Source: Labilibacter sediminis
GTDB taxonomy: Bacteria; Bacteroidota; Bacteroidia; Bacteroidales; Marinilabiliaceae
Reading direction: 5' to 3'
NCBI RefSeq assembly: GCF_005877885.1
Contig: NZ_VCHY01000002.1
Coordinates: forward strand, 186,001-250,000
Length of the DNA stretch: 64,000 bases
The notes under the pieces are model-generated. The model was not told the DNA's origin. It did no database searches and was given only the letters and a program-made list of their open reading frames with translations. This document shows positions 5,983-55,441 of the stretch, piece by piece. Positions within the stretch are counted from its first letter, which is position 1. Every line of letters starts with the position of its first letter. The position numbers were made by a program, and so were the translations under genes.

Positions 5983-6186
5983 TTAAGGTATTGTTATTTG
6001 TTCAATGACGTAATTGGCACGATCCTCATCATTAGAGAATTCTTTTTTAAGCTTATTCTGGAAAAAGAAAAGCTTAAAAATCACAAACATGATAAGTAAT
6101 TTTAGCAAGATGATAAACCAAACCGATCTGGCCCAATCGGGCAGGTTTGTAAATCCTTCCACATAAAACTCAACGATTCTTTTCAT
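5983..6186 (-). CDS. DUF4492 small membrane protein, cydA-associated
   Basis: A 67-residue protein starting MKRIVEFYVEGF with one strong hydrophobic span (about residues 21-42, WFIILLKLLIMFVIFKLFFF) and a charged C-terminus. It matches the DUF4492 family, which I know from genes immediately upstream of cydA in Bacteroidota and Campylobacterota; its function is unknown, possibly oxidase assembly or stability. I choose the ATG at 6186. The frame is open further upstream to 6237, but those 17 codons (MIKFSWEFHAAIENYKR) belong to a repeated DNA element that also precedes hisH in the same way, so they are unlikely to be native protein. Confidence 0.82.
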   Translation of the reverse strand: MKRIVEFYVEGFTNLPDWARSVWFIILLKLLIMFVIFKLFFFQNKLKKEFSNDEDRANYVIEQITIP

Positions 6187-6285
6187 GCGTTTATAATTTT
6201 CAATTGCTGCATGGAACTCCCAAGAAAATTTAATCATTCGCTTGTGTGTAAAATTGAATAATTAAATTTTACATAGTCGTTTCAT
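6184..6285 (-). repeat. 102-bp dispersed element, copy A, directly before the DUF4492 start codon
   Basis: Copy A matches copy C (55340-55441) at 96 of 102 positions, without gaps. Read on the minus strand it begins ATGAAACGAC, carries a stem (AAATTTAATTATTCA ... TGAATGATTAAATTT type) around a loop containing ACACACAAG, then TTGGGAGTTCCATGCAGCAA, and ends AAACGCATG, where the ATG is the start codon of the downstream gene. The match stops at that codon: beyond it the DUF4492 and hisH genes are unrelated. See the findings for the compensatory changes. Confidence 0.85.
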
Positions 6286-6387
6286 CTGTCTAAATTTATT
6301 TTTCAATTGTCAGATGGAACTCCCAAATAAATTTGATCATCCGCCTGTGTGTTAATTTTGATAATCAAATTTGCATGGTCGTTTCAT
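6286..6387 (-). repeat. 102-bp element, copy B, diverged tandem copy
   Basis: Directly upstream of copy A on the minus strand lies a second, more diverged copy. It keeps ATGAAACGACCATG, a 9-bp stem AAATTTGAT/ATCAAATTT, ACACACAGG in the loop, TTGGGAGTTCCAT and CAATTGAAAA. Its stem differs from copies A and C by a paired change (G-C in B where A and C have A-T). The in-frame peptide of copy B, MIKFIWEFHLTIEK, ends at a stop codon. Confidence 0.75.
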
Positions 6388-54742: not shown

Positions 54743-55342
54743 TTACAGTTTTATAAAGTTTTCCAGAATTCTTGAACCTACATCACCACTTTTTTCAGGA
54801 TGAAACTGAGTAGCGTAAAAGTTATCTTTATGCAGAGCAGAACTATACGGTAAAATATAATTTGTAGTAGCTGCAGTATGCTCTCCCAAAGCCACATAAT
54901 AACTATGTACAAAATACACATATTCCTTTTCGAGGGAAGCATCAAACAATGCACTATTCACATTCACCAATGCATTCCATCCCATGTGTGGCACTTTTAT
55001 ATTTTCTGAATTTGGCGAAGGAAGCTCAAACTTTTTTACTTTCTCATCAAATATGCCCAGGCACTTGACATCTCCTTCTTCTGAGTGGCTACACATTAAT
55101 TGCATTCCCAGACAAATACCTAACACAGGTTGCTTTAGACCTAAAATAAGTTCATCCAACTTATTCTCTTTAAGATATTTCATGGTTGAACTGGCTTCTC
55201 CAACTCCCGGAAAAATAACCTTATCTGCACTTCTTATCTCCTCAGGATCTGCAGTGATCACATGCTCAACACCCAAACGATCCAAGGCAAAACTTACGGA
55301 ACGAATGTTTCCGGCATTGTATTTTATAATGGCAATTTTCAT
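54743..55342 (-). CDS. hisH: Imidazole glycerol phosphate synthase subunit HisH
   Basis: The glutaminase half of IGP synthase. The catalytic Cys is in [13 protein letters not shown], and the His/Glu pair is in [12 protein letters not shown]. The start at ATG 55342 ([15 protein letters not shown]) is the normal family beginning. The frame is open for 17 more codons (MIKFSWEFHAAIENFKR) because the repeat element copy C runs straight into the gene. The same extension precedes the unrelated DUF4492 gene, so it is not native. The length is 199. Confidence 0.95.
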
Positions 55343-55441
55343 GCGTTTAAAATTTTCAATTGCTGCATGGAACTCCCAAGAAAATTTAATCATTCACTTG
55401 TGTGTAAACATGAATAATTAAATTTTACACGGTCGTTTCAT
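55340..55441 (-). repeat. 102-bp dispersed element, copy C, directly before the hisH start codon
   Basis: Differs from copy A (6184-6285) at only six of 102 positions, with no gaps. On the minus strand it runs from ATGAAACGACC through a stem-loop to AAACGCATG, the hisH start. It fills the whole intergenic space between the TlpA-like gene and hisH except 18 bases. Confidence 0.85.

Follow-up and report, generated by a model that had tools for sequence, protein, structure and literature searches.

A short repeat of Labilibacter sediminis and related Bacteroidota that probably inserts at ATGAA and supplies the start codon of the gene behind it

The window analysed here, i.e. the whole 64-kb stretch of Labilibacter sediminis DNA, carries two tandem units of a short repeat ahead of the first gene of the cyd operon and a lone unit ahead of hisH. 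The features of interest are listed below; P2 is the second of two hairpins that make up a unit.

6286..6387, minus strand: unit B, the member of the tandem pair farther from the gene; left end ATGAAACGA at 6387-6379; P2 of the CTG/CAG type
6187..6285, minus strand: unit A, the inner unit, adjoining the gene; left end ATGAAACGA at 6285-6277; P2 of the GCA/CGC type
6182..6186, minus strand: right-end ATGAA of unit A, made up of the DUF4492 start codon plus AA; the 67-aa frame opens with MKRIVEFYVEGF
5983..6186, minus strand: gene for a DUF4492-type small protein, first in the cyd operon, downstream of unit A
55343..55441, minus strand: unit C, a lone copy ahead of hisH; left end ATGAAACGA at 55441-55433
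55338..55342, minus strand: right-end ATGAA of unit C, which is the hisH start codon plus AA
54743..55342, minus strand: hisH, 199 aa counted from the ATG of the element

We take the frame at 5983..6186 to be DUF4492, following a preliminary description of this DNA. By eye, most of 20 related loci have a homologous frame directly ahead of cydA. The nearest named CydA matches, among which records of the home genome may be missing, come from Saccharicrinis, Plebeiobacterium and Carboxylicivirga, which places the genome in the Marinilabiliaceae or close to that family. The preliminary description had noticed a 102-base match between A and C, and direct comparison of 6184-6285 with 55340-55441, both on the minus strand, gives the same 96 identical positions out of 102; a repeat finder extends the match to 129 nt at 87%. 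Its second, tandem copy ahead of the first cyd gene is also there. This copy, B (6286-6387), belongs to the same family as A but to another subtype; aligned without gaps, the two agree at only 47/102 positions, owing to a divergent right half and to small indels that put the sequences out of step. The A/C match had been said to finish precisely at the start codon of the gene behind it. This is not so: the shared block continues through ATGAAAA, i.e. through the start codon and the bases next to it. We read the unit as ATGAA-ACGA...NNN-ATGAA, with an ATG-to-ATG spacing of 99 nt in A and 102 nt in B. The mechanical hisH frame begins at 55393, inside unit C, and has 17 additional element-encoded residues (window 55343-55393). 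Since this frame begins 17 codons upstream within the element, gene callers may over-extend proteins behind units, and the repeat can mislead annotation in this way.

The 102-base match turned out to be one unit of a high-copy element, so the dispersed repeat first described is real and larger than noted. In the home genome (6.36 Mb, 372 contigs) the search pattern GAGTTCCATN{20,45}ATGAA has 45+63 matches, 108 altogether, and the reversed pattern used as a control has 0+1. With blastn, 40 scored matches were obtained from 153 candidates in the same genome. At least one pattern match is present in 50 of 61 genomes (home genome and relatives); many of these have only one or two, which is of the same order as the reversed control. 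A clear excess is seen in G000 (108), G004 (128), G008 (67), G020 (167), G025 (138), G029 (112), G035 (382) and others. When a stricter pattern was applied to a phylum-wide draw, 4 of 296 genomes had a match. Besides the home genome these are G200, a member of another class with 9 copies, G081 with a single copy, and G315, whose match (L328) was read as chance and dropped. The repeat is thus abundant in one family and scattered outside it. In the home genome, identical units were seen at separate places in three pairs, and at least five identical 72-mers occur among the matches listed for G025; such identities suggest recent movement. Two scans of viral contigs gave 18 stretches that look chance-like by eye and one stretch with a genuine unit. 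Contig L294 (4.6 kb, classed as viral) carries one intact unit near 515-582, ending at ATGAAAAAGC.

Units have the left end ATGAAACGA, with some decayed exceptions, and the right end NNNATGAA. They are typically 95-108 bp long, the shortest being 57 bp and the longest about 165 bp. Between the ends there are two abutting hairpins with covarying pairs, P1 (AAC-GA-NNN...NNN-GA-GTT) and P2 (CATNNN...NNNATG). P2 includes the right-end ATG, so that the start codon of the gene behind a unit can be part of a stem. For alignment A1, 154 units were reduced to 108 by a diversity filter; 60 were listed, and 48 passed and were aligned. The conserved blocks in the 48 units are ATGAAACGA, GAGTTCCAT and ATGAA, which are conserved partly by construction because they are also the search anchors. 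The outer P1 and P2 pairs are invariant partly by construction too, the units having been picked by these same three blocks. Among features that are not anchors we find a semi-conserved CACAnAAGnnnATGATTA-like stretch in P1, outside the named stems, and an AAA-rich P2 loop.

Covariation in the 48-unit alignment was compared with shuffled controls. The covariation score is 0.280 (shuffled 0.079 +/- 0.011), and 92.7% of the cells for the named pairs hold a standard pair (shuffled 80.6 +/- 0.9); 0 of 500 shuffles were as high in either case. Structures slid along the alignment score at most 0.055. Two of the five measures were no better than the shuffles, namely pairs changed on both sides (4 vs 4.2) and further pair types (15 vs 13.6). 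Among 162 distinct units, three variable, non-anchor P2 pairs are Watson-Crick in 85.6% compared with 49.8 +/- 1.7% with shuffled partners, and three inner P1 pairs in 77.2% compared with 55.6 +/- 1.5%. RNAalifold on the alignment recovered P2 only, with 5 pairs; P1 was tested by naming its pairs. Counted on the sense strand, P2 has 37 A-C mismatches vs 8 G-T, with 31 of the 37 at one position, and the three inner P1 pairs have 23 A-C vs 19 G-T; these counts favour neither strand clearly as the one that acts.

A few units depart from this plan. The P1 loop of L003, L037 and L058 holds a nested insertion around ATGAAATACGAAGTATTCAT that looks like a further palindromic repeat of smaller size. 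A different small P1-loop insertion, GATCG.CG.AGTCAATGA-like, is found in L020, L038 and L377 (before ridA), and it follows from these cases that the P1 loop tolerates cargo. Some units (L025) look mosaic, with halves that belong to two different subtypes, as if halves had recombined with each other or units had done so inside an array.

Targeted insertion had been raised in the preliminary description as one explanation of the position of the repeat, and the comparison of relatives agrees with it. Empty sites carry one ATGAA and filled sites two, as seen at hisH, at ridA and in two Marinilabilia genomes. At hisH the home genome reads flank-ATGAAA-CGACCG...GC-ATGAAA-ATTGCC. No unit is recognisable in the 200 bases inspected upstream of hisH in 7 of 8 same-genus relatives, and the gene starts with ATGAAA in six of these and with GTGAAA in G004. 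G008 has a unit of another, older-looking subtype, in which the left ATGAAAC has decayed to ATAAAAC and the right ATG is kept. In the Marinilabilia salmonicolor pair, L111 has one ATGAAA and L112 two tandem units; the sequences to the left and right of the site correspond at 81-84% identity, and the two flanking matches overlap by 6 bp at ATGAAA. ridA has a unit in the home genome and, in G005, a unit of another subtype at the same codon, so that at ridA, as at hisH (home genome and G008), one start codon is occupied by different subtypes in different species. Six relatives start ridA with ATGAAA and the motif search recognised no unit there; one of them, G004, has an apparent decayed remnant. 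G001 starts ridA with ATGTCG and is without a unit. cysQ is preceded by two units in the home genome and by none at its start in eight relatives. A one-mismatch motif 174 bases upstream of cysQ in G007 was taken as chance. The left end begins with ATGAA in at least 101 of 111 home-genome units, with up to two mismatches to ATGAAACGA allowed. The right-end ATGAA is not an independent test, because the search required ATGAA there. The base following it is A in 89% of right ends vs 51% of background starts in the home genome. We infer that tandem arrays arise by re-insertion at the ATGAA that each unit brings.

Regarding the position of the units relative to genes, the home-genome sample consists of 111 units with a right end, 13 within arrays and 98 terminal; 27 rows without an ATGAA right end, read as chance, were dropped before counting. 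In 75 of the terminal copies the right-end ATG opens a frame of at least 50 codons, and the other 23 have no frame of 50 codons behind them. Many of the 75 downstream frames begin with what looks like a signal-peptide, lipoprotein or enzyme N-terminus, and several of the downstream genes (L006, L008, L022, L028, L051, L054) we take to be sulfatase-like (PNVVIIMADDMGY). The background was drawn from 324 kb of home sequence only (13 arbitrary stretches and the window) with simple ORF rules. In it, 1104 of 1379 non-element ATGAA sites (about 80%) lie in coding sequence, and the 275 non-coding sites divide into 113 start-like and 162 intergenic ones. The difference between 75/98 and 113/275 corresponds to a Fisher odds ratio of 4.7 (p = 1e-9); the background rule also demands fewer than 25 open codons upstream, and by that rule the element count is 72/98. 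Few copies lie inside genes, since only 3 of the 75 start-codon copies have at least 25 open in-frame codons upstream and only 5 of the other 23 have a frame of at least 90 codons running up from the left. As most ATGAA sites are coding and few elements are in genes, insertions within genes must be lost.

The frequency of start-codon copies differs between genomes. It is 8/9 in G004 and, in the distant relatives, 6/9 in G200 and 7/9 in G042 (9 of 11 distinct places examined), and the one matched copy of G081 lies exactly at the start codon of a frame recognised as lpxD. In G025 and G035, where copy number is very high, only 4 of 15 terminal copies adjoin a start codon; among the misses, three lead into a further unit and two are on near-duplicate contigs. 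G015 has 2/5 (5 of 6 places examined). One row in L345, read as chance, was dropped before the counts for G200, G042 and G015 were made. The values of G025/G035 and G015 mean that the preference is not universal. Several lineages show it strongly, whereas it is weak in the two genomes in which the element has exploded. According to the preliminary description, a leader interpretation fails if most copies lie away from start codons and in random orientation: in the home genome most copies are not away from start codons, but among the sampled copies of G025 and G035 most are.

Taken together, our results suggest that the unit is a non-autonomous mobile element which inserts 3' of ATGAA and re-creates the start codon that it enters; we give this reading a probability of about three in four. 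An element of about 57-165 bp would insert 3' of ATGAA and bring its own ATGAA at the right end. Due to this right-end ATGAA, a gene starting with ATGAA would keep an intact start codon and its reading frame, and the element would replace the old 5' leader of the gene. Copies landing within genes would break them and get lost, those at start codons would be tolerated, and the latter could be entered again to give tandem arrays. A putative enzyme working in trans, either a recombinase or one of HUH type, would recognise and move the folded single strand, with the two hairpins and the ATGAA beside them as its substrate. The excess at start codons may mean that such sites are easier to reach or that copies survive better at them. 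For most small bacterial repeats, tolerance is explained by their landing between genes. The unit described here often hits the most sensitive point of a gene, and apparent housekeeping genes are affected (hisH, ridA and frames recognised as purQ, leuB, murI and lpxD); it would be tolerated there because its own end is a start codon.

A further-reaching form of this reading is that the units represent a new gene-sparing class, in which a folded strand is put at ATGAA by a trans-acting enzyme that prefers start sites or can only reach these, the leader is swapped, and the element has crossed between classes of Bacteroidota. We put this forward tentatively and consider it unlikely in its full extent. 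If it is true, each jump gives a gene a new, potentially regulated initiation region with the start codon in a hairpin of the element.

The main rival is a passive repeat, MITE- or REP-like, for which ATGAA is only a target and which is purged from genes, without preference for start codons and without function. We put its chances below even, and it explains G025 and G035 better than the home genome. It is favoured by ATGAA being the target at the empty sites seen, by the high turnover from species to species, and by G025/G035, where most copies have no gene behind them. The 4.7-fold excess in odds over non-coding ATGAA in the home genome speaks against it, and so do the high start-codon rates in G200 and G042 (although the background comes from the home genome only) and the position of the single copy in G081.

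Another explanation is that the repeat is a mobile cis-regulatory RNA leader: P2 would hold the AUG, and a signal or a protein would open P2, bringing the genes under shared translational control. The mean predicted folding energy of 135 units as RNA is -19.7 kcal/mol vs -11.8 for mononucleotide-shuffled controls. In 100 of these folds P1 coexists with CAT paired to the right ATG and in 16 this ATG is paired without P1, so the right-end ATG is bound by CAT in 116/135; in 12 folds CAT pairs with the left ATG and 7 have neither pairing. With DNA parameters the same four classes have 57, 46, 1 and 31 members. P1 and P2 therefore usually coexist in the prediction despite competing for GTTCCAT. A switch is conceivable, since CAT on the left ATG would free the start codon. 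The covarying variable pairs of the P2 stem and the CACAnAAGnnnATGATTA-like stretch of P1 would also suit such a leader, and on these predictions a regulatory function of the element is possible. Several observations make a leader improbable as the explanation of the repeat. Predicted folding is almost as favourable for the bottom strand (-18.4) as for the top one. The usual mismatch in the extended pairing of ATGAAAC with GTTCCAT is A-C in the sense strand and G-T in the antisense strand, which suits an antisense structure at least equally. The sets of genes behind the units are not conserved, 7 of 8 same-genus relatives having no recognisable element in the 200 bases before hisH, and 23/98 terminal copies are without a 50-codon frame behind. 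The rapid turnover between species speaks against a conserved leader function. Rfam gave no match in the window at the gathering cut-off; a search of 6 loci at E <= 1 gave one mir-3618 match only, far below its cut-off.

Finally, an intervening sequence that removes itself, such as a mini-intron or an excised element, and leaves flank-ATGAA-gene in the RNA is hardly credible: deleting one unit would indeed give the empty-site form, but a spliced element could sit anywhere in genes, where about 80% of background ATGAA sites are found, and instead 72/98 elements open a frame that has a stop codon close upstream, a long frame enters the unit in only 5 of the 23 frameless copies, and the start codon is already supplied by the element.

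The preferred reading, a mobile element at ATGAA, brings the unit close to several known systems. IS200/IS605 elements generally have a fixed short target at the left end and subterminal hairpins (compare PMC6006769). As in the MITEs and PATEs derived from them and moved by Y1 HUH transposases, the unit has a fixed left target, an equivalent word at the right end, no internal gene and subterminal hairpins. It has a fixed word at both ends, a single copy of this word in the empty site, and subterminal hairpins in the predicted single strand. Unlike IS200/IS605, it targets ATGAA at start codons, its two hairpins abut and share GTTCCAT, no inspected Y1 gene is bracketed by unit ends and the presence of Y1 does not track copy number. 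The unit is similar to REP/REPIN sequences (TnpA-REP, RAYT) in being short, high-copy, palindromic and arrayed, with species-specific subtypes. The GT[AG]G hairpin-foot word of REP/RAYT is absent from the 48-unit alignment, and in 9 loci viewed by eye the unit was not seen flanking RAYT-type genes, which other palindromes adjoin. REPs are placed largely between genes in PMC6006769. As the architecture resembles that of IS200/IS605-derived and REP elements but defining features of both were looked for and not found, we assign the unit to neither family.

Correia, ERIC/RU and other bacterial MITEs are non-autonomous, about 100 bp long and intergenic. Unlike Correia and ERIC/RU, the unit has no terminal inverted repeats, has a fixed target word and ends in a start codon. 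Instead of the terminal inverted repeats of classical MITEs, ATGAAACGA.. and ..NNNATGAA share a direct repeat, and the site-to-site variation in target duplication of classical (DDE) MITEs is not seen, the left ATGAA being present in at least 101/111 units. The TAACTGA heptamer repeats of Beggiatoaceae and some Bacteroidetes (PMC4679880) likewise stand a few bases upstream of many unrelated start codons, with a patchy distribution and no functional pattern of genes; the abstract of that paper describes heptamer direct repeats and mentions neither a hairpin unit nor a target word nor empty sites. An insertion that spares the host gene is what the unit shares with IStrons and group I/II introns. 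Unlike in these, no ribozyme was found in the unit with Rfam, and its scarcity in coding sequence argues against splicing. We recognised no description of an ATGAA- or start-codon-targeted repeat in this group in our searches of the open-licence literature. We file the unit as a small non-autonomous element, an apparently undescribed variant outside the IS200/IS605 and REP families. Its filled and empty start sites form a natural set, which allows a direct test of what Bacteroidota genes need in their 5' leaders.

The unit also prompts a search for a new mobilising enzyme. Y1_Tnp (PF01797) was searched in the home genome and in 8 and 29 further genomes (family genomes G021 and G036 left out), with E <= 1e-15 as our own choice of cut-off for presence. 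Y1 does not track copy number: it is present in 9 of 14 family genomes with at least 20 copies vs 15 of 21 with fewer. It is absent from G014 (21 copies, 98% complete), and G025 has a single weak match, flanked by other palindromes. None of 36 scanned Y1 loci is bracketed by unit ends. Three of them (L189, L190, L202) have units, all on one side of the Y1 match, and in L189 and L190 the Y1 gene is flanked by other palindromes. Reverse transcriptase RVT_1 (PF00078) did not track element number in 23 genomes and is absent from G025, G013, G009 and G200. An autonomous copy was not found among 121 right-end matches in the examined loci, of which 7 have no left end within 260 bp. One of these lone right ends belongs to a unit cut by the locus edge, and six are chance-like. 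A Y1 subclass of Bacteroidetes and Cyanobacteria (1.2) is generally without typical terminal structures according to PMC6006769. The Y1 protein of L091 has the YIxNQKEHH-like motif of this subclass, so that at least one such protein occurs here. Due to this motif a subclass 1.2 Y1 is still a candidate in some genomes, though no general answer. A Y1-like (NHVHVI) domain was noticed inside a large open frame in L199 (1-3279, G020:C335) and L200 (808-3276, G035:C198), and in long frames also in G029 and G012. The large frame around the domain is one that we take to resemble a type IIG/Eco57I-like DNA methyltransferase.
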